In this document: piece by piece, positions 31,111 to 61,693 of the stretch
Layout: every line of letters begins with the position of its first letter
Numbering within the stretch: position 1 is the stretch's first letter
Assembly: GCF_011806455.1 (NCBI RefSeq)
Contig: NZ_JAATOT010000002.1
Span: forward strand, 186,001 to 250,000
From: Celeribacter sp. HF31
GTDB taxonomy: Bacteria; Pseudomonadota; Alphaproteobacteria; Rhodobacterales; Rhodobacteraceae
DNA: 64,000 nucleotides
Direction of reading: 5' to 3'
Made by a program: the position numbers and the translations under genes
The notes under the pieces: model-generated
Database searches by the model: none
What the model was told of the DNA's origin: nothing
The model's input: the letters and a program-made list of their open reading frames with translations, nothing else

Positions 31111-33971
31111 TTTTTCAGACCGGCAGCGACGATCTGGACCATCGCCTCGACACGCAGCTGGCGCACCTTGCCGAGCGCAACGCCCCCTCCGGCTATCTCG
31201 CCAATCAGGTGACGCGCATCCGCGAAGCGGTGTTTCACGACTTTTCCTCCTATCGCTTTCTTCTGCCGCCCGCCTATCTGCGTCACCGCGGGGCGGGACC
31301 GGCGGGCGCCACCGAGCTTGATGGCAGCGACGTGAGTGTCGCCACATGGATGGCCTTCGACGCCTTTGTGTCGCGCTTTGACACGGATGTGCAGGCCGTT
31401 GTCGCCGATTGGGTCTGGCACGAGGTCGGCAGCGTCATCACGCGCGAGAGCTTTGACTACATGGGCGAGGTCGAATGGTGGCGGGAGGATCACGAACGCG
31501 AACAGCGCAACCGGCAGGTGTTTCAGGAAGCCCGCGAGGGGTTCTCTTTGGGCCTCGCCCCCGATCTCTTCGCGATCTACACCATGACGCCGCGCCCCGC
31601 CGGCTTTCTGATGGCCGCGCAGTCTTTGGTCTCCGATTGGCTGGTCGCCGCCCTGCGCGCGCTGCGCCGCCCCGATGGCACCTATCGCTACACCGACATC
31701 CGACGCGTCAACACGGCGCCCTTCTGGCAGGCTGCGCAGCCCGACATCCTGCCCGCGCTCGCCGATTTTCTGCCCTCGGAGGACGACGCGGACCCCGATG
31801 CGGGCGAAGAAGAGTTCGGCGAGGCCCTGCCCGAAACCTTCGCCTTTGAACCTTTCATGCCCGCCACGGTGAATTTCGGCCTGCAAACCGTTTACCGGCA
31901 AGGCTGGACACCTCTTGGCACACAGCCGGGCGAAATCGTCCGCACCCTGCCCCTGGGCCCGAAACAGACCGAGAAAATCTCGGTCAAGGCGGTGCGCCGC
32001 ACCAAGGCCACACGTCAAGCCGAGATCAGTTCCAGCATCGAAACCGCGACCGAAAGCTCGGCCGCCACGAAAGACAGCTCCGAAGTGGTGCAGGAGGCCT
32101 CCGAAAGCTTCAATTGGCATGTCGAGGCCACGGCGAGCGCCAGTTTCGGCTTTGGCAGCGCCTCGGTGACCGCGGGTGCGGGCGGCGAAAACGCATCGTC
32201 ATCACGCGACACCAAAAGCCAGCTCAACGAAACCATGGAAAAGACCGCGAGCAAAATTCGCAAGGACACGAAAATCATCGTCTCCACGGAGGTCGAAGAG
32301 ACCTCGGAATTCTCGCAAGTCTCTGAAATCTCGAACCCCAACGACGAAATCGCGGTGACCTACATCTACAGCCGCCTGCAGCGCCAATACGAGATCCGCA
32401 CCTATCTATCCGAGGTCAATCAGGTGATCTATGTCGCCGAAGCGATCCCTTCGCCCAGCGAGATCACCGGCCCCTGGGTGCGGCGCTACGACTGGATCAT
32501 TTCGCGCGCCTTGCTGGATGAAAGCTTTCGTTCCGATCTCGATGCCGTGCGTCGTTATGAGGACGAAGGTGACAGCGAGGCGGGCGTTGACCCGCGCATC
32601 GCCGCGCTGATGGGCAGCCTCTCCGGCGACGGCAGCACCCCCGGCCCCGGCGTGCCGGATTATAGCGGTTTGCCCGGCCAGATCCCCGACATCCACCGCC
32701 AGCAACAGGAGGCCTATGAGCGCGAGGTCGAACGTGAACGCGCCCGGGCCGCCGACCGCGCGCAATACCGCCGCAGCGTGCGACGCCTGCGCGGCCATAT
32801 CTACGACAATATCCTGCATTACTGCCGCGCGATCTGGTCGTCGGAAGACCCCGATCAACGCGCGCTGCGCTATGCCCGCACCCGCGTGCCGATCCGTTGG
32901 GAATTCGTCGCCACCGGCAGCGGGCCGCAGTCGGTCGAGGGCTATTTCGCCCCCGCCGTCACCGATCGCAGTCGCGACACCGCGCCGCTTTCCGATCTGG
33001 TCAATCCCGCCGGACCCATTGGATTTGCCGGGAATTACGCGGTGTTCTACCTGCGACACTCGACGCGGTGGGCCTCGATCACCCGGATGTTGCAGATGAT
33101 GCAAGCACCTTATCTGCGCTTTGACATCGAGATTGCGCGCGCCGGTCTCGACCCCGCCGTCGGCCTGCGCGCCGCCGTTTCCGACAGCCTGACCGGACCC
33201 GCACAGTATCGGTTTACGGTCGCGGCAGGCGATGACGGCGGCAGGGTCCTGAACGTGCAGGGACTGGACGAGGACGGGGTTTGGACAGATGTCCGTGTGT
33301 TGCCGCTGCGCGAGAACCGGGCCTTGGTGTTTCTTGGGCTCAAACTGATCGCCACCAATGTGGCGGCCTTCAATCTCGGCGATCAGTTCGAGATTCTCCT
33401 GCGCAGCCGTCAGATGCTCGAGGACCCGGAACTCAAAGCGATCAAATGGTCGGAGCCGCCGCTGGACGACGCGGGCGCTGCCGCGTTTTTCACCCTTGAG
33501 GCCATCGCCGAGGCGCGGGAAAACTTTGCCGATGTTTACCGCGCGCTCAAGGATATGGCCGTGGACGTCGCCTGGGCCGATCTCGACGAGACCCAGCGCG
33601 CTGTGTTGCGTGCCCGCTATTTCGAGCTTTTACTGCGCCGCCAGCACACCCGGCGGATCGTCCTTGACACCAACAACCTGATGCTGACCCGCGAGGTGGA
33701 TGATGCCACCACGCTTGAGCCCTTCAAAGGCCTGCACCGCGTGATCGATGTGCTCTCGGCCAATGCCGCCGTGCGGGCCGAAACGCTTGAGGCGGATCGT
33801 CTCTCCGACCGGCTGGACGCGGGACACTTGGGGGACCCGGACATCGACAAGCTCACGGTTGTGGCCGCCGATCCCGGTTTCGCGGGCCTCGCCGCGCTCG
33901 ACGGCCTCACGCCGGACGGGCCGGATGGACCCACCGGCCCCGTCGCGCCCGATCCGCTCGACGACGACTGA
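31107..33971 (+). CDS. 954-residue protein of unknown function
   Basis: I do not recognise this protein. There is no signal peptide. Residues 1-230 are mixed helical with many Trp and Arg. A distinctive stretch near residue 254 reads VNFGLQTVYRQGWTPLGTQ. It is followed by a Lys/Arg segment (GPKQTEKISVKAVRRTKA) and a Ser/Thr/Ala/Glu-rich, probably elongated part (about 305-420, with FNWHVEATASASFGFGSAS). A charged helix (EAYEREVERERARAADR) comes near 535 and the C-terminus is Pro/Asp-rich. It overlaps the TOPRIM gene by four bases and precedes the toxin-like gene by 22 bases. A structural or delivery role for the next protein is only a guess. Confidence 0.8.
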   Translation: MIFQTGSDDLDHRLDTQLAHLAERNAPSGYLANQVTRIREAVFHDFSSYRFLLPPAYLRHRGAGPAGATELDGSDVSVATWMAFDAFVSRFDTDVQAVVADWVWHEVGSVITRESFDYMGEVEWWREDHEREQRNRQVFQEAREGFSLGLAPDLFAIYTMTPRPAGFLMAAQSLVSDWLVAALRALRRPDGTYRYTDIRRVNTAPFWQAAQPDILPALADFLPSEDDADPDAGEEEFGEALPETFAFEPFMPATVNFGLQTVYRQGWTPLGTQPGEIVRTLPLGPKQTEKISVKAVRRTKATRQAEISSSIETATESSAATKDSSEVVQEASESFNWHVEATASASFGFGSASVTAGAGGENASSSRDTKSQLNETMEKTASKIRKDTKIIVSTEVEETSEFSQVSEISNPNDEIAVTYIYSRLQRQYEIRTYLSEVNQVIYVAEAIPSPSEITGPWVRRYDWIISRALLDESFRSDLDAVRRYEDEGDSEAGVDPRIAALMGSLSGDGSTPGPGVPDYSGLPGQIPDIHRQQQEAYEREVERERARAADRAQYRRSVRRLRGHIYDNILHYCRAIWSSEDPDQRALRYARTRVPIRWEFVATGSGPQSVEGYFAPAVTDRSRDTAPLSDLVNPAGPIGFAGNYAVFYLRHSTRWASITRMLQMMQAPYLRFDIEIARAGLDPAVGLRAAVSDSLTGPAQYRFTVAAGDDGGRVLNVQGLDEDGVWTDVRVLPLRENRALVFLGLKLIATNVAAFNLGDQFEILLRSRQMLEDPELKAIKWSEPPLDDAGAAAFFTLEAIAEARENFADVYRALKDMAVDVAWADLDETQRAVLRARYFELLLRRQHTRRIVLDTNNLMLTREVDDATTLEPFKGLHRVIDVLSANAAVRAETLEADRLSDRLDAGHLGDPDIDKLTVVAADPGFAGLAALDGLTPDGPDGPTGPVAPDPLDDD

Positions 33972-33993
33972 GCGGGGGCGCGAAAGGACTGTC

Positions 33994-36564
33994 ATGGGGG
34001 CCGAGCGCGAAGCAGAAGCGATCTTTGCCCGGTTGCGCGCGGCGCGATGGGCGGTGGAAACCGTGGATCGTGTCTCCACAAACCCCTACGGCAGTTCCGG
34101 CCTGGAAGACGATCAGCGCCTTCGGGCCTGGGCGCATCTCGCCCGTGTCTACAATATGGAAACCATGCAGGCCCGCCGGCAATACCGACGCGACATCGAG
34201 TTTCTGCGCGACGTGCTGACCCATACCGCCAAAGAGATCGGCGAGCGGTCGGACGCGATGATGGAGGACGTGCGCGGTCGCCTCTCAGAGAGCTTTCTGC
34301 ATGGCCCGGTCAATGATTTCGATCCCTCTGGCCGGACGCCGCCGCTCACCAGCCTCGCGCGCAGCCTCGCGGCCTATACGGTCGCCTGTAGCGACGCGCC
34401 CTACCCCTATCTCGAAGAAGACCTGTCCCGGCTGTCCGCCACGCCCCCCGGCCCCGAGGTGCGCAACACCCTGCCCGCCGGCGTTCCCGAAGCGCCGCCG
34501 CCCAGCACCGTTTCGGAGATGCGCGACGCGGGCGTCCCCGAACCCGAAAGCGGCTGGGCGGTGCAACTGCCGGATCGTTGGCGGGGCTGGGACAGCGGGC
34601 GCAATCCGCAGGTCCAATTCGCCAAGGAGGCCTATGTCTATGTCGTCACCACCGACGAAGATCTGCGCCTCGCCACGCTGACGCAGGACATGCGACGCCC
34701 GCCCAGCACCGAAACCTACGACGGTCACGCCATCACCCTGCTCGCCGGGCGGTTCATGACCCCACGCCAGCTCTATCTCACGCTCAGATCCTCCCCGACG
34801 GCCCGCAACCACGAGCTGCGTGGTCTGGCCGAACGCATCGATCTCTATCTCGCGGAGGGGCAAAGAGAGTTTCGCGCGGCGTTTCGGGCGCGGGACTGGC
34901 AAACCCTGCGGCCCTTGCTCGAGGCGGCGAAATGGTCGCTGTTTCCCAATGCCCAGACCTCCGGCGGCCTTCTGCGCTATCGCGGTGCGGATGCGCCTTT
35001 GCAGTTCATCTGTGACGAGATCATCGACGATCTCGAGGGCTGGACCATCTCCGACACGATCCTGGCGGTGACCATCGTCGCCTCTGTTGCCCTGGCCTTC
35101 ATGTCGATGGGAACCTCCTCGATCGTGGCGGCCACGGCGATCCGGGCGACGGCTTTTGCGGTGGACATTGGGGGCGTGGCAGTCGATCTCATCGTCGCGG
35201 ATCAACAGAACCAGCAACGCGCCACGATCAACCGTTTCGCGGCGCTGGACACCGCGCTGAACGTCGCGGCGCATCCCGAAAGCCTCAAGGCACGAGCGGC
35301 CATCGGCGCGCTGTCGCTGCTGATCCCCTATGCGCTGCCCCGCGCCATCAGCGCGGTCCGTGGCAGTCTATTGAGCCGGGCACTGCGCCGCATTCCACGG
35401 GGCGATTTGCCTCCCGCGGTGGCCCGCGCCGCAAACGCCACGCCCGTGCCGCCCCCTCCACCTGCCGTCACGCGGACCGGTCAAGCGGTCACCGCGGAGG
35501 CACGCGGCACCACCAATGCCGCACGTCAGGCCAGCGAGCGCGGCACCGGACGGGCCGCCCCCCCGCGACCACGCCGCGGCGCATCGGCGACGCCCGAACA
35601 GACCACAGCGACACAAGCGACACCGACGCAAACCACCTCGCCGTCCGCCACACAACCGACCGCCAGACAATCGACCGCAGCCCCGAGCGCGTCACAACGC
35701 ACGACGCGCGGGACAACGCGTGGCACAGGAGCGGGAACAGGACGCGGTCGCACGCAACGCGGGACTGGCAGCGGCTCAAGACGCGGCTTCACCGGCCCTG
35801 CGCCCGCGCATGTCCCCAACCCGCCCGGCAGCGGCCAGAGATATATCGATGCGGCAGCGGCCTCCTATGGCAACGCCCCGATCATGTCGCCCCGCACCGC
35901 CGGGTTTCTGAGCGACTTCGATCGCGCCATCGCCGGAACGGGCGGCATTCGCAAAATCATTGCAGGACGGACTCCGGATGGACGCAGTGCCTTTCGGATC
36001 TCCGGAGAAATCCTGCCCGGTCGGTTGCGCCGCAGAGCCGGGCGCTTGTTGCCCGGTCAAACGCGCGCTCCGAATTTCAACAATCTGATCCGGGGCACGA
36101 ACATGCTGGGCCCGATCCGCCAGCTTGCCGCAACCCTTAGGGGCACCCCCACCCGTTTGGGCGGGCGCTGGCAATGGTTGCATCTCTGGGGGCCGGGCTT
36201 TGGCGACGAGGCCGCTGCGGGCATGATGATCGGGCTCAGATCGGTCAATCTTCAGCTTCAGAACCTTGGCATTGAGGACACCATTCGCGGGCTGGCCACA
36301 CGCGCCCGTGCCGCCGGCGGGCGTTTGGAACTTGTGGCCACGGCCGAGGCCTGGGGCCGGACCACGCCCGCCGGGTTCACCACGCCAAGCGGCGCGGAAT
36401 TCCTGCACAGCGCGGAATATCGGTTCTGGATCGTGACCCCCAATGGCACACGTGAGGCGGCGTTTCTCGTGAACATCACCTGCCCCGACCCCGGCGACGT
36501 CATTGGCGCCATCCGCGCAGGAACACGTCTGCCCCGTGCGGTGGTCTCAGAGGGGTATCTCTAG
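33994..36564 (+). CDS. polymorphic-toxin-like protein
   Basis: 856 residues from ATG 33994, with GAAAGGA upstream. The order is a long helical N-terminus (1-330), a hydrophobic Gly/Ala-rich segment (about 350-405, TILAVTIVASVALAFMSMG), a Pro/Thr/Arg-rich linker (about 480-610) and a compact C-terminal domain (about 690-856). That domain has WLHLWGPGFGDEAAAGMM and FLHSAEYRFWIVTPNGT. N-terminal carrier, hydrophobic pretoxin region, linker and C-terminal effector is the layout of polymorphic toxins. The tip resembles, from memory, the family called polymorphic toxin type 4; this was not searched. No obvious immunity gene follows. Confidence 0.65.
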   Translation: MGAEREAEAIFARLRAARWAVETVDRVSTNPYGSSGLEDDQRLRAWAHLARVYNMETMQARRQYRRDIEFLRDVLTHTAKEIGERSDAMMEDVRGRLSESFLHGPVNDFDPSGRTPPLTSLARSLAAYTVACSDAPYPYLEEDLSRLSATPPGPEVRNTLPAGVPEAPPPSTVSEMRDAGVPEPESGWAVQLPDRWRGWDSGRNPQVQFAKEAYVYVVTTDEDLRLATLTQDMRRPPSTETYDGHAITLLAGRFMTPRQLYLTLRSSPTARNHELRGLAERIDLYLAEGQREFRAAFRARDWQTLRPLLEAAKWSLFPNAQTSGGLLRYRGADAPLQFICDEIIDDLEGWTISDTILAVTIVASVALAFMSMGTSSIVAATAIRATAFAVDIGGVAVDLIVADQQNQQRATINRFAALDTALNVAAHPESLKARAAIGALSLLIPYALPRAISAVRGSLLSRALRRIPRGDLPPAVARAANATPVPPPPPAVTRTGQAVTAEARGTTNAARQASERGTGRAAPPRPRRGASATPEQTTATQATPTQTTSPSATQPTARQSTAAPSASQRTTRGTTRGTGAGTGRGRTQRGTGSGSRRGFTGPAPAHVPNPPGSGQRYIDAAAASYGNAPIMSPRTAGFLSDFDRAIAGTGGIRKIIAGRTPDGRSAFRISGEILPGRLRRRAGRLLPGQTRAPNFNNLIRGTNMLGPIRQLAATLRGTPTRLGGRWQWLHLWGPGFGDEAAAGMMIGLRSVNLQLQNLGIEDTIRGLATRARAAGGRLELVATAEAWGRTTPAGFTTPSGAEFLHSAEYRFWIVTPNGTREAAFLVNITCPDPGDVIGAIRAGTRLPRAVVSEGYL

Positions 36565-37507: not shown

Positions 37508-37875
37508 ACACACACACAGATGAACGCTTAGAGGCGCTTCCTCCGCTTTGCTCCATTCAAGACGCCGCCAAAACGCTTGGCGTTCCGAAAGCATCCCTGC
37601 GCTCCGTCGCAGAAACTCACGGCTTCATCGTCCGCATGGGACGGGCCGTATTGCTCGAAAGCGAGCGACTTCCTGATTTGGCGAAAAAATGCCGAGACCA
37701 GCCAAAGGAGCCAGGCTCCACAAATTCAAGCACCGACCGCACTGGTACATCCGAGACACCGCGCAACCAGACCGCAGCACGGGCCACACAAGCCGCGAGC
37801 AAGCTGAAAAAGCCCTCGCTGCGTATATCGCCACCAAAGGCCGGAAAGGTTCTGCCAATGAGCCGGGAAACATAA
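37492..37875 (+). pseudogene. excisionase-like helix-turn-helix protein without a start codon
   Basis: The frame from 37492 to TAA 37873-37875 contains PPLCSIQDAAKTLGVPKAS, a helix-turn-helix as in phage excisionase or MerR-like proteins, then FIVRMGRAVLLESERLPDL. No ATG, GTG or TTG precedes the domain. ATGGGTAGAC at 37499 would supply a start in frame (ATGGTAGAC) if it had one G fewer, so a one-base change in a G run is the likely cause. The end overlaps the integrase start, the usual xis-int arrangement. Confidence 0.5.
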
Positions 37876-38652
37876 CCTGCGGTGAGGTTCTGACAATCTA
37901 CGCCGAAGAATATGCGCCAACCGTCGCCGCGCCAGAACGGATCGGATATGCGCTTGATGCGCTCATACCATTCTGGGCTGAACTCAAAGTTTCGCACGTC
38001 AAGGGCGAGACTTGCAGGCGCTATGCGAAGTTTCGGAAGAAGGTCATTAAACGCGATGCAGAAGGCGAGCCCATCGAGTGGGCGCCAGTTTCTGCAGGCA
38101 CCGTGCGAAGGGAACTCGGGACGTTACAGGCCGCGCTGAACTATTGCCAAAGTGAAGGATTCCTCACGAGCGCGCCGCTTGTCACTCTGCCTGAGAAGCC
38201 AGAAGCGAAGGAACGATGGCTGACGCGAGATGAGGCCGCACGTCTGATTTGGACGGCGTATCGAGGCCACAAGGCCAAACACATCGCACGGTTCATTCTC
38301 ATCGGCCTCTATACCGGTACGCGGAAAGACGCGATCATCAGAATGGGCTTTGAGAAGAACACCATAGGGGGTTGGTTCGATCTAGATCATGGGCATCATG
38401 TATCGCATGAGCGCGTCGGAGCGGTCGACAAAGAAGCGCAGAACCCCTGCCCCCATCCCTCGCCAACTTCTCGCCCACCTGAAACGCTGGAAAGCTCAAG
38501 GGGCCGTTTGGGCCGTCGAATATAATGGTGGATTGATCAAAGACCCAAAGCGCGACTTCGCCAAGCTGCGCCGCAAAAATAGCAAGCTCGAGGAGCGGCA
38601 GCTTTGGGCCGATGTCGTTTCTATGATTTGCAACGCAGTCACCTTTTATTAA
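37689..38652 (+). pseudogene. tyrosine recombinase (phage integrase), copy 1, frameshifted and truncated
   Basis: The start MPRPAKGARLHKFKHRPHWY at 37689 is the arm-binding N-terminus. The core domain follows (CGEVLTIYAEEYAPTVAAPE), then the catalytic Arg in LYTGTRKDAII. After DLDHG the frame is lost because the G run at about 38391-38393 has one base more than copy 2. The alternate frame continues (MYRMSASERSTKKRR) to PKRDFAK and then leaves the family at about 38564, so the C-terminal His and Tyr residues are missing. It cannot encode an active recombinase. Confidence 0.8.
37947..38564 (+). repeat. long direct repeat, copy 1 (internal integrase sequence)
   Basis: 618 bases that recur at 40433-41049 in the same orientation with only scattered substitutions and one extra G. 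The repeat begins at TATGCGCTTGATGC and ends at TTCGCCAA. Confidence 0.88.
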
Positions 38653-38807
38653 CCAACTCGCGCTAAAGCTGAATGTGGCTCAAGCAGTGCCCACTAAACT
38701 TATCAACTTACCAATCCTAAAGCTCTAAGATTTAGAAAACTGAAAAAACTTCGATTGCATCCGCGTCGAAGTTTTTCGGCGAGGAAAACGTGTCTCCTTT
38801 AGGTTGA

Positions 38808-38822
38808 GTAACGACTTGTTAA
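38808..38822 (+). promoter_or_regulatory. CtrA-like site upstream of the small membrane protein gene
   Basis: GTAA, seven bases, TTAA: one mismatch to the TTAA-N7-TTAA consensus of CtrA. It ends 44 bases before ATG 38866. The 150 bases before it (38653-38807) are A+T-rich and contain no gene I can support. Confidence 0.45.
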
Positions 38823-38865
38823 CCAACATCTGTTCATGCTGAGAGGAAGCGGGGAAAGAAAGACA

Positions 38866-39051
38866 ATGATCAGGCAAAAAGTTTTTCTTATACTCGTTTT
38901 GATATGCGGGCTGGTCGGTTCCTCCTTTTTGGTCGACAGACTGATAGCTGTTCAGCCCTTCGCTAGCATCGCGACATATTTCACGCTGTTAATTGGTACT
39001 GGTTTAGCTGTGTTCATTTACAACAGGTACTTTTGGGAGGGAAACGAATGA
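38866..39051 (+). CDS. small membrane protein
   Basis: 61 residues from ATG 38866 (MIRQKVFLILVLICGLVG). This start is preferred to 38836 because the CtrA-like site then stands at the same distance as in the two neighbouring units. Two membrane helices fill most of the protein (VFLILVLICGLVGSSFLV and YFTLLIGTGLAVFIY). No family is recognised. It shares ATGA with the next gene. Low G+C sets it apart from the chromosome around it. Confidence 0.5.
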   Translation: MIRQKVFLILVLICGLVGSSFLVDRLIAVQPFASIATYFTLLIGTGLAVFIYNRYFWEGNE

Positions 39052-39263
39052 CGATCTCGGAGCATCCAAATTTGAAGAGCGTCTATGCAGATGCTTTGGT
39101 CCTTAGCCGGGACGAGACGCAATCTCTCAATATGCGCCGAGCCGCTTTAAGGCTTGTCTTGGCAATTCGAATGGAAGTTGGTGAAGATCGTTTGACTGAA
39201 AAGTCGGCTTCCGATCAAAGGAGCTGCTCCACGGCTCTAGATCGGGTTCTTTTCCACAAATGA
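39048..39263 (+). CDS. small protein of unknown function
   Basis: 71 residues from ATG 39048, with GGGAGG upstream inside the preceding gene and a four-base overlap with it. The product is soluble and helical (LSRDETQSLNMRRAALRLVL). I do not recognise it. Coupling suggests it works with the membrane protein before it. Confidence 0.5.
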   Translation: MTISEHPNLKSVYADALVLSRDETQSLNMRRAALRLVLAIRMEVGEDRLTEKSASDQRSCSTALDRVLFHK

Positions 39264-39309
39264 TTTCCACAAGATAATCCACATGCAATTCGGGTTCCCA
39301 AGCGTTTTG

Positions 39310-39324
39310 TTAATCAACTGGTAA
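39310..39324 (+). promoter_or_regulatory. CtrA-like site upstream of a 50-residue ORF
   Basis: TTAA, seven bases (TCAACTG), GTAA: one mismatch to TTAA-N7-TTAA. It ends 46 bases before ATG 39370. Confidence 0.45.
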
Positions 39325-39369
39325 CCAATTTAAACGAAGCCTTACGCAGAAGTTATCTGTGGAGGATGT

Positions 39370-39522
39370 ATGTTTAAGATGCTGCAAGGTGCTGATGCGG
39401 TTAGCTCAGTGACTCAGAGTGATTTTGAAGGCCTCCCCCCAATTAAATGCCTTGGCACTGAACCAACGCCGATCAATATCCGCGACATTGCATTGACAGC
39501 CCTGTATCGCGCCTCAGACTAA
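39370..39522 (+). CDS. small ORF of unknown function
   Basis: 50 residues (MFKMLQGADAVSSVTQSD), preceded by GGAGG four bases before ATG and ending at TAA 39520. No family is recognised. The ribosome-binding site and the upstream CtrA-like site at the common distance argue that it is real. Confidence 0.45.
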   Translation: MFKMLQGADAVSSVTQSDFEGLPPIKCLGTEPTPINIRDIALTALYRASD

Positions 39523-39647
39523 ACGTCATTTCCCCGAATAGCTCTCAGTCCCATGCCAGCGGAAGCTCCTGTAAATGGTTGTTTTTCCGCCGAATGAAGC
39601 CTGACAAAGAGCGAGAAATCGCGCACTAAACCGTCTCTACTTTGCGA

Positions 39648-39662
39648 TTAACTTTTTGTTAA
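39648..39662 (+). promoter_or_regulatory. CtrA-like site upstream of a 91-residue ORF
   Basis: An exact TTAA-N7-TTAA (TTAA, CTTTTTG, TTAA). It ends 46 bases before GTG 39708. The 125 bases before it hold nothing else I can support. Confidence 0.55.
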
Positions 39663-39707
39663 TGGACTCGGCGCGCAATAGACCTATCCCAAACACGGAG
39701 GACCACC

Positions 39708-39983
39708 GTGAATATTCAGACACTTTTACTGACCAATCCCCTCCAAGAAGGGGCGGAGAAGGTTCAACAGGACCGATCTCCTTCACCACTGAGAATTGAG
39801 CTGGCGACTTATCGCAACGAGCTCTTAACGGCTTTCTCCGAGGCCGACATTTCGGGATTCGAAGCGACGAAAATGGCTTTGGCTGAAATGCTGCGCGAGG
39901 TGGAAAAGGAACTCAGAGGAGTAAGGATAACTGAGGCAGTCAATAGCAGGGCGGAACCGTCAAATCTGGAAGATGACAATTAA
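39708..39983 (+). CDS. small helical protein of unknown function
   Basis: 91 residues from GTG 39708 with GGAGG seven bases upstream. The middle is a long amphipathic helix (YRNELLTAFSEADISGF to LREVEKELRGVRI) that could form a coiled coil. No family is recognised. Its stop is five bases before the end of the IS3-type fragment. Confidence 0.55.
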   Translation: MNIQTLLLTNPLQEGAEKVQQDRSPSPLRIELATYRNELLTAFSEADISGFEATKMALAEMLREVEKELRGVRITEAVNSRAEPSNLEDDN

Positions 39984-39987
39984 TCTT

Positions 39988-40434
39988 GATCCGCCCCACT
40001 TGAGTGGTCCAATTTGATTGTTAGTGCATGATCGGCCTTTGGTCCATCTGGATGATGGTTTCGGGGGCCGGTGGGCGGTAGCCCAGAGCACTGTGGGGGC
40101 GTTTCGTGTTGAAGTGTTTCCTCCATTCTTCGATCAGGATTTGAGCCTCGCGCAGGCTGTAGAAGATCTCACCGTTCAAGAACGCGTCGCGGAACCGAGC
40201 GTTGAAGCTTTCACAATATCCATTCTCCCAAGGGCTACCCGGTTCAATGTAGGCCGTCTTCGCGCCGACAGCCTTGATCCAGTCCTGGACGGCCCGAGCA
40301 ACGAACTCAGGCCCATTATCGGAACGTATGAACGCCGGCACGCCGCGCAGGATGAACAGGTCACTCAAAGCGTCGATGACGTTGCCAAAGTTCAGCTTGC
40401 GATCCACGCGTATGGCCAGACATTCCCGACTGTA
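39988..40434 (-). mobile_element. truncated IS3-family insertion sequence
   Basis: The left end keeps a likely IS terminus (TGATCCGCCCCACTTGAG) followed by the 3' end of a transposase gene on the minus strand. The right end is cut: at about 40434 the sequence passes directly into integrase copy 2, sharing only TA with both partners. The 5' half of the element and its other end are gone. Confidence 0.75.
40021..40434 (-). pseudogene. IS3-type transposase OrfB, C-terminal fragment
   Basis: The minus strand encodes the end of an rve-type DDE transposase: FIRSDNGPEFVARA has the second catalytic Asp, and PGSPWENGYCESFNARFRD the Glu. It ends in HFNTKRPHSALGYRPP before TAA. The first catalytic Asp and the OrfA part are missing, so it is inactive. 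The frame runs a little further into integrase sequence, but that part is not transposase. Confidence 0.85.
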
Positions 40435-41049
40435 TGCGCTTGATGCACTCATACCATTCTGGGCTGAACTCAAAGTTTCGCACGTCAAGGGTGAGACTTG
40501 CAGGCGCTATGCGAAGTTTCGGAAGAAGGTCATTAAGCGCGATGCAGAAGGCGAGCTCATCGAGTGGGCGCCAGTTTCTGCAGGCACCGTGCGAAGGGAG
40601 CTCGGGACGTTACAGGCCGCGCTGAACTATTGCCAAAGAGAAGGATTCCTTACGAGCGCGCCGCTTGTCACTCCGCCTGAGAAGCCAGAAGCGAAGGAAC
40701 GATGGCTGACGCGAGATGAGGCCGCACGTCTGATTTGGACGGCGTATCGAGGCCACAAGGCCAAACACATCGCACGGTTCATTCTCATCGGCCTCTATAC
40801 CGGCACGCGGAAAGACGCGATCATCAGAATGGGTTTTGAGAAGAACACCATAGGAGGTTGGTTCGATCTGGATCATGGCATCATGTATCGCATGAGCGCG
40901 TCAGAGCGGTCGACCAAGAAGCGCAGAACCCCTGCCCCCATCCCTCGCCAACTTCTCGCACACCTTAAGCGCTGGAAAGCTCAAGGTGCCGTTTGGGCCG
41001 TCGAATATAATGGTGGATTGATTAAAGACCCAAAGCGTGGATTCGCCAA
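40433..41049 (+). repeat. long direct repeat, copy 2 (internal integrase sequence)
   Basis: Partner of the repeat at 37947-38564. It keeps the correct reading frame at the G run where copy 1 has an extra base. Confidence 0.88.
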
Positions 41050-41257
41050 TGCCGTGAAAGATGCAGGCCTTTCAGGCGTCACACCTCACACCCTCAAACA
41101 CACGTCCATCACCTGGGCATTCCAAAACGGCGTGAGCATTTGGGACGCGGCGGGCTTCTTTGTGACAAGCCCTGAAACCATAGAAAAGATCTACGGCCAC
41201 CACGCCCCAGACTTCATGCACAGTGCAAAAACAGCCATGGAACGTCGCCGCAAATGA
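40433..41257 (+). pseudogene. tyrosine recombinase, copy 2, lacking its N-terminus
   Basis: The frame enters from IS sequence and becomes integrase-like at YALDALIPFWAELK. The catalytic part is intact: LYTGTRKDAII (Arg), PHTLKHTSITW (His-x-x-Lys/His box) and IEKIYGHHAPDF (Tyr). The arm-binding domain is missing, so DNA recognition is probably lost. The gene ends 61 bases from the tRNA-Arg 3' end, the normal position of an integrase next to its attachment site. Confidence 0.75.
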
Positions 41258-41318: not shown

Positions 41319-41395
41319 TGGCGCACCCATCAGGATTCGAACCTGAGGCCTCTGCCTTCGGAGGGCAGCGCTCTATCCAGCTGAGCTATGGGTGC
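41319..41395 (-). tRNA. tRNA-Arg (anticodon CCG)
   Basis: The minus strand folds into a full cloverleaf: acceptor GCACCCA with TGGGTGC, D arm GCTC...GAGC, anticodon stem CTGCC/GGCAG with loop CTCCGAA (anticodon CCG), T arm TCAGG-TTCGAAT-CCTGA, discriminator G and an encoded CCA. It reads the CGG codon. Its 3' end faces the integrase remnant, so it is the likely chromosomal attachment site of the prophage-like element. Confidence 0.97.
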
Positions 41396-61057: not shown

Positions 61058-61693
61058 ATGACCCACGACACGCCTACAGATGCGCCTAAAGACACGAAAC
61101 GTGACATGACCCGCGACATCGCCGCCCTGATCGGTTCCCGTATCTGTCACGACCTGATCAGCCCGGTGGGGGCGATCTCGAACGGTGTCGAATTGATGGC
61201 CATGTCGGGCGCGGGAACCGGCCCTGAGCTTAGCCTTATCTCCGAAAGCGTCGACAATGCCAATGCCCGGGTGAAATTCTTTCGCATCGCTTTCGGCATG
61301 GCCTCGGCCGGCCAGATGACCTCGCGCGCCGAAATCTCCGGCATCCTGAACGCGATCTCCACCCCGCGGCTCACCTATGTCTGGGAGCCCGCCGAAGACC
61401 TGCCGCGCGAAGAGGTCAAACTGGCCTGTCTCATGCTGATGTGCCTTGAAACCGCCCTGCCCCGTGGCGGCGAAATCAAGGTGACCTATTCCAACAACCA
61501 ATGGAAAATCCGCGCCTCTTCCGCGCGGCTCGAACCTGCGCCCGATCTCTGGGCCCGGCTTGGCAGTGTGACGGGCACCGAAGGGTTGAAACCCTCTCAA
61601 GTGCAATTCATCCTCGCCCCCTTGCAGGCTTCGGCTCTTGGCCGCCGCATCACACAGGGCTCCGGCGACGGGGTGATTTCTCTGATGGTATAA
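61058..61693 (+). CDS. chpT: histidine phosphotransferase ChpT
   Basis: 211 residues. The dimerisation helix carries the phosphorylated His in SRICHDLISPVGAISNGVELM near residue 31. The degenerate ATPase-like part (KLACLMLMCLETALPRGGEI) follows. ChpT passes phosphate from CckA to CtrA and CpdR. Its length and order match the family. A terminator closes the gene. Confidence 0.9.
   Translation: MTHDTPTDAPKDTKRDMTRDIAALIGSRICHDLISPVGAISNGVELMAMSGAGTGPELSLISESVDNANARVKFFRIAFGMASAGQMTSRAEISGILNAISTPRLTYVWEPAEDLPREEVKLACLMLMCLETALPRGGEIKVTYSNNQWKIRASSARLEPAPDLWARLGSVTGTEGLKPSQVQFILAPLQASALGRRITQGSGDGVISLMV

Follow-up and report, generated by a model that had tools for sequence, protein, structure and literature searches.

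The closest described counterparts of the locus reported here are the CtrA-activated promoters of the Rhodobacterales, namely those of R. sphaeroides fla2 and of the D. shibae regulon, in which a box of the TTAA-N7-TTAA(C) type, the published CtrA consensus (passages of PMC4046655 and PMC6180460), sits at a -35-like distance. At CtrA promoters of R. sphaeroides, transcription starts 23-24 nt after the site and the leader measures 12-33 nt (passages of PMC6180460), and a site before ctrA is reported for D. shibae as well (an excerpt of PMC4046655). In groups other than the Caulobacterales and Hyphomicrobiales, the roles described for CtrA are in motility, chemotaxis and quorum sensing, and CtrA sites on mobile DNA are already known from alphaproteobacterial phages, in which several are packed before unassigned genes (sections of PMC9437464). 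Caulobacter has CcnA, a non-coding RNA tied to CtrA (PMC8959179, in part).

Within the window, by which we mean the whole 64,000-nt stretch of Celeribacter sp. HF31 DNA analysed here (genome 3.6 Mb in 13 contigs), such sites stand before short genes in a cluster of about 1.3 kb (38606-39927) that occurs twice in this genome, the second time on contig C12, and once in Celeribacter naphthalenivorans. As in R. sphaeroides and D. shibae, the boxes are of the TTAA-N7-TTAA(C) type at a -35-like distance and the host has both CtrA and ChpT; as in D. shibae, a site precedes ctrA. The targets differ, being flagellar or regulatory genes there and short genes of unassigned role here, on what we infer to be a mobile island. 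With the phage clusters the locus shares several CtrA-like sites packed before unassigned genes on mobile DNA; unlike them, it has no phage genome around it, and its conserved copies lie by tRNA genes in two species of Celeribacter. The RNA proposed below is likened to CcnA by description and not by sequence, its region having no Rfam match up to E = 5. From sequence comparison, we consider it probable that this is a mobile cluster whose transcription units carry CtrA-activated promoters.

CtrA-like sites, their genes and the host regulator

A window-wide scan for the CtrA-type pattern TTAA-N7-TTAA, with at most one mismatch allowed, gave five places: P1, P2 and P3 in the cluster and two more at 1552 and 60670. 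The preliminary description had listed the three cluster sites, the third exact and the others with one mismatch, and the scan returned the same coordinates; the spacings it gave from the site ends to the start codons at 38866, 39370 and 39708, namely 44 (P1), 46 (P2) and 46 nt (P3), are reproduced from the coordinates. Its count of three transcription units has to be revised, since a weaker fourth site, P0, and a candidate small RNA had been overlooked; P0 has more than one mismatch to the pattern and hence was missed by the pattern scan. The features are as follows:

38638-38652, + strand: P0, weaker fourth CtrA-like site, GTCACCTTTTATTAA then CC; matrix rank 5 among the window's 127966 positions on both strands
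38677-38777, + strand: candidate small RNA, a conserved non-coding stretch with a predicted 5' end
38808-38822, + strand: P1, CtrA-like site 1, GTAACGACTTGTTAA(CC), one mismatch; matrix rank 1
38866-39051, + strand: gene 1, for a hydrophobic (membrane-type) peptide of 61 aa; its stop overlaps the start of gene 2 in ATGA
39048-39263, + strand: gene 2, 71 aa, predicted helical
39310-39324, + strand: P2, CtrA-like site 2, TTAATCAACTGGTAA(CC), one mismatch; matrix rank 3
39370-39522, + strand: gene 3, 50 aa, hypervariable
39648-39662, + strand: P3, CtrA-like site 3, TTAACTTTTTGTTAA, exact (no mismatch)
39708-39983, + strand: gene 4, GTG start, 91 aa, predicted two-helix protein
61058-61693, + strand: chpT, PF10090 at 85.6 bits, above cut-off; two NCBIfam ChpT models match below their cut-offs

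Purifying selection is strong on genes 2 and 4 but not on genes 1 and 3: dN/dS is 0.05-0.19 for gene 2 and 0.11-0.14 for the shared part of gene 4 (its C-terminus is unlike that of the sister copies), 0.63 for gene 1 (window vs C. naphthalenivorans) and 0.55-1.2 for gene 3. Gene 1 has a further in-frame ATG upstream, at 38836; the ATG at 38866 is ATT in C. naphthalenivorans and the C12 copy of the gene is frameshifted, with P1 kept in both. For gene 2, AlphaFold predicts helices at residues 7-21, 27-44 and 57-69 (mean pLDDT 73.5, from two sequences), a model with no PDB match below E = 1, and for gene 4 the predicted helices are at 27-45 and 52-81 (mean pLDDT 69.8, from three sequences). None of the four genes matches a family above cut-off in Pfam, PHROGs or NCBIfam, weak matches below cut-off being of the kind of DUF2017 for gene 2 (E 0.015), and the preliminary view that the genes are unrelated to each other holds as far as they were compared. 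Protein searches of 149 genomes of the family matched genes 4, 2 and 3 in their own genome only; a search with the gene 4 alignment across 394 genomes had hits in two, the second being G306 at E 3e-4. Of the 20 genomes of the genus, three have gene 4 and two have gene 2. A diverged gene 4 relative lies on a 21-kb contig of C. halophilus (L029 5845-6126), with no evident CtrA-like site upstream by eye.

That these genes are wired to CtrA, as had been proposed with reference to a chpT gene within the window, is supported by sequence as regards the binder. The chpT gene is indeed there, the host CtrA matches NF045991 at 431.5 bits (cut-off 350), and a scan of the 3.7-kb ctrA locus at no more than one mismatch found two places, one of which, GTAACGTGTAGTTAACC, lies 76 nt before the ctrA start and has the half-site variant GTAAC-N5-GTTAACC in common with P1. 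The accompanying link to the cell cycle is doubtful, because outside the Caulobacterales and Hyphomicrobiales the described roles of CtrA are the motility, chemotaxis and quorum-sensing ones given above. Elsewhere in the genome, exact sites lie 56 nt before a protein in which only PAS domains were matched and which we take to be DivL-like, 67 nt before a glycosyltransferase with an MshEN domain and a c-di-GMP-binding match, 29 or 35 nt before a SpoIIE-type response regulator, 41 and 70 nt before two RTX genes (depending on the choice of ATG) and 45 nt before a small protein without family. The sites before the PAS-domain protein, the glycosyltransferase and the family-less small protein recur before the orthologues in other Celeribacter species.

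The mechanism we infer would run from CckA through ChpT to phosphorylated CtrA; positioned at the -35 region on the palindrome TTAAC-N5-GTTAA(CC), CtrA would recruit RNA polymerase. The start points would be expected some 24 nt past the sites, near 38847, 39348 and 39687, leaving leaders of about 20 nt, and GGAGG before genes 3 and 4 would act as ribosome-binding site, that of gene 1 being weaker. The output of P0 would be the small RNA, that of P1 the membrane peptide and the helical 71-aa protein, that of P2 the 50-aa peptide and that of P3 the two-helix protein.

Chance, other binders and repression

Chance would account for the sites if TTAA words had piled up in A+T-rich foreign DNA of a GC-rich genome and their spacing were luck, a reading that we regard as very improbable. 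Base composition speaks in its favor (GC 0.47 in the cluster vs 0.61 in the window), and the number of sites is by itself weak evidence against it, because at least three occur in 4.6% of 5000 dinucleotide shuffles of the A+T-richer cluster (P = 0.046); whole-window shuffles reach at least five places in 9 of 100. A genome-wide scan gave no excess of the pattern (22 places vs 32 for its reverse), nor is the stricter TTAAC-N5-GTTAA enriched over 20 genomes of the genus (70 vs 79 for the control, a hand sum). A matrix does place its best matches in the window at the cluster sites: over 127966 positions on both strands, P1 comes first, P3 second (read against the direction of its gene; in the gene's direction it ranks seventh, below P0) and P2 third, the next distinct place being P0. 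This matrix was built from eight sites outside the cluster, the ctrA site and 7 of 20 exact places, chosen by eye for a plausible gene downstream; of the 13 left out, some also precede plausible genes. Position likewise argues against chance, the probability of a site 43-47 nt before the start, a range picked post hoc, being 0.0014, 0.0078 and 0.0042 for the three starts; of the window's 176 mechanically called ORFs with 100 aa or more, three have a site within 130 nt upstream and one has it at 43-47 nt. The constant spacing stressed in the preliminary description is not a special feature: 44-46 nt is the usual layout, because the start points and leaders of R. sphaeroides predict 35-57 nt from site to start codon, and the spacing fits mapped CtrA promoters. 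If the starts are placed 23-24 nt past each site, P1 has both of the bases reported for R. sphaeroides, A at -11 and G at -4, P2 has the A alone and P3 has neither (letters read by eye), and a promoter scan gave one sigma-70-like match, at 39251-39278 and not at any site, where shuffles average 1.4. Stronger evidence than the motif count comes from conservation, which lifts the sites above chance because their core is invariant in three diverged copies (dS 0.32-0.56 in genes 2 and 4). Across the window, C12 and C. naphthalenivorans copies, 24 of 24 TTAA/TTAA core letters are unchanged, vs 259 of 334 upstream positions outside the sites (Fisher P = 0.003). P2 keeps all eight core letters while four of its seven spacer letters vary; at P1 and P3 the spacers are invariant too, the P3 15-mer being identical in both other copies.

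Even if the sites are real, the protein that binds the palindromes might be a different host regulator, or a repressor belonging to the element itself, which we hold to be quite improbable. P3 is a perfect palindrome in its outer letters, like many repressor sites; yet the sites match the published CtrA consensus, the same type of site stands before ctrA and signalling genes of this host, and no DNA-binding family is matched above cut-off by any of genes 1-4. CtrA might also bind here and repress, as proposed for genes of phage vB_BsubS-Delta (a section of PMC9437464), and CtrA is able to do so; this seems unlikely, given that repressing half-sites in Caulobacter overlap the -10 region (a passage of PMC6180460) and that the distance to the start codon here fits activating sites. 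Activation by CtrA is the reading that we retain as probable.

Copies of the cluster and their surroundings

The window copy shares 84% identity with the C12 copy and 86% with that of C. naphthalenivorans, and since the three pairwise identities (84, 86, 86%) amount to about equal distances, the window copy is, judged by them, not a recent duplicate. Cluster DNA was matched in 3 of 20 genomes of the genus, its own included, and in one of these, the Celeribacter genome G159, only 29 nt of the candidate RNA are matched. Flanks are common to the copies on C12 and in C. naphthalenivorans, and both copies lie by tRNA-Leu(caa); the latter adjoins a 56-nt 3' fragment of tRNA-Leu, past the end of a prophage in which tape-measure and endolysin genes are present, so placed that the cluster seems to be outside the prophage end, beyond the fragment. 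The window copy is flanked on both sides by a piece of a tyrosine integrase gene; a transposase remnant also stands to its right, and tRNA-Arg(ccg) is adjacent:

37689-38564, + strand: truncated tyrosine integrase gene, copy 1 (phrog_1, 5.8e-20)
40021-40488, - strand: transposase remnant with integrase-core (rve) domain (PF13683, PF00665), presumably IS3-type
40433-41257, + strand: tyrosine integrase gene, copy 2, 5' part lost (phrog_1, 9.4e-31; PF00589 below cut-off)
41319-41395, - strand: tRNA-Arg(ccg), 3' end toward the integrase

The two integrase copies are 96% identical between 37947-38564 and 40433-41049. The preliminary description had called the region a prophage remnant; the integrase and transposase debris at tRNA-Arg agrees with this, but genes 1-4 match no PHROGs family. 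Moreover, the cluster DNA and the gene 4 protein have no match in plasmid or phage records, and genes 2 and 4 have no relative in viral contigs, so that a location in a phage genome was not found.

The cluster is followed by decayed second copies of its own parts, in C. naphthalenivorans of the P0/P1 region and the gene 1 start (L022 1922-2165) and on C12 of the gene 1 start (L021 11032-11119); parts of it would therefore have been duplicated in place. Downstream of both sister clusters is a 57-aa gene (L022 2250-2423, L021 11208-11381), absent from the homologous stretch of the window copy. Its protein resembles one near an RNA core (see below) in genome G098 at E 8.6e-5 in a comparison of 12 proteins, for which shuffles gave 18 matches below 0.05 in 20 rounds of 144 pairs. 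Elsewhere in the window, a 938-aa ORF at 33748-36564, whose C-terminal part matches Ntox4 (PF15541, 4e-11), overlaps the end of another ORF, of 954 aa, that has no Pfam match, possibly a polymorphic-toxin locus, and a Hint-domain protein (PF13403) is encoded at 389-1630 on the minus strand.

A candidate small RNA and its relatives

Downstream of P0, whose right half and CC are invariant in the C12 and C. naphthalenivorans copies while its left half varies, there is no convincing ORF. The candidate RNA there has a core, CACTAAACTTATCAACTTAC, at 38692-38711 and a terminator-like stem at 38747-38773 followed by a T run; a terminator scan with a loop limit of 8 reported none in the region, the candidate's loop being longer. 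The longer stretch 38660-38785 folds no better than its shuffles (z -1.1), and a stem 3' of the core is present in all four loci folded (z -3.1, 0.1, -2.0 and -6.1). The last of these values belongs to G159, which has the exact 20-nt core at another locus, then a different, very stable stem and a T run, with GTTAC-N5-TTTAA at the same distance upstream of the core, not significant by the matrix (3.2, P = 0.21). Apart from its own antisense, the core has no complement of at least 11 nt in the 17 stretches searched.

A family-wide search with at most three mismatches gave 23 hits in 19 of 394 genomes vs 18 for the reversed core (our own count), and because of this control most three-mismatch matches are by themselves noise. 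Membership of an RNA family was set, irrespective of CtrA sites, by AGCAG or GAGC no more than 20 nt upstream of the core, and 15 of 25 loci (the 23 matches plus loci in G161 and G159) belong to it. A matrix site with shuffle P below 0.05 lies within 90 nt in 9 of these 15 members and in 2 of the 10 other loci. Without the three cluster copies, 6 of 12 loci have a CtrA-like site 27-35 nt upstream of the core (binomial P = 1e-5) and the other six have no significant site; counted by genome, with the cluster copies again excluded, the figure is 5 of 9 (P = 3e-5). Both values are to be read with the facts that several upstream regions were inspected before the site test was set and that two genomes supply 5 of the 12 loci; of 20000 random 90-nt stretches, one strand, from 14 loci, 305 score at least as high as the weakest of these sites.

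Near the cores, RTX proteins (PF00353) are encoded in C. naphthalenivorans, G098, G198, G223 and G375, and LuxI synthases (PF00765) in G159 and G375. By motif scan, 8 of 17 stretches, none of them the window, carry RTX or RYPGG signatures. In G396, a CtrA-like site ends 44 nt ahead of the start of a 67-aa ORF. As raw counts, these neighbors suggest a possible link of the cores to CtrA and quorum-sensing outputs.

LuxI autoinducer synthases near a core are located at L069 14401-15033 and L102 2334-3104. CtrA-like sites also stand before short ORFs near cores in other genera (L098 37 and 4147, L101 4333, L105 628 on the minus strand), and short proteins near cores in G111 and G312 resemble each other. 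When genes 1, 2, 3 (C12 copy) and 4 were compared by BLAST with the small proteins encoded near cores in other genera, no convincing match emerged. The core also occurs in a viral contig (L106), inside a phage gene, and was set aside there as a chance match; matches of the RNA region in plasmids and phages are weak and were taken for chance.

Tentatively, then, these loci may represent a new small-RNA family of the Rhodobacteraceae, composed of GAGCAG, the core CACTAAACTTATCAAC and a terminator, with CtrA-type promoters, carried on mobile islands near genes for RTX secreted proteins and LuxI and accompanied by small helical proteins, which would form a portable post-transcriptional arm of the CtrA/quorum-sensing circuit. 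Our literature search found no paper with the core letters, and the titles and abstracts searched, a set with most subscription journals outside its scope, name no such RNA in the Rhodobacterales; in that set, CtrA and Celeribacter come together in a single paper, a survey of prophages. Beside the CtrA sites already known from phages, what is apparently new here is a non-phage, tRNA-linked cluster together with a candidate RNA family. Boxes for a host regulator on an apparently mobile cluster would show how acquired DNA that brings no regulator along can join the CtrA circuit, and the RNA family, if real, would be a directly testable CtrA-dependent riboregulator common to several genera of the family.
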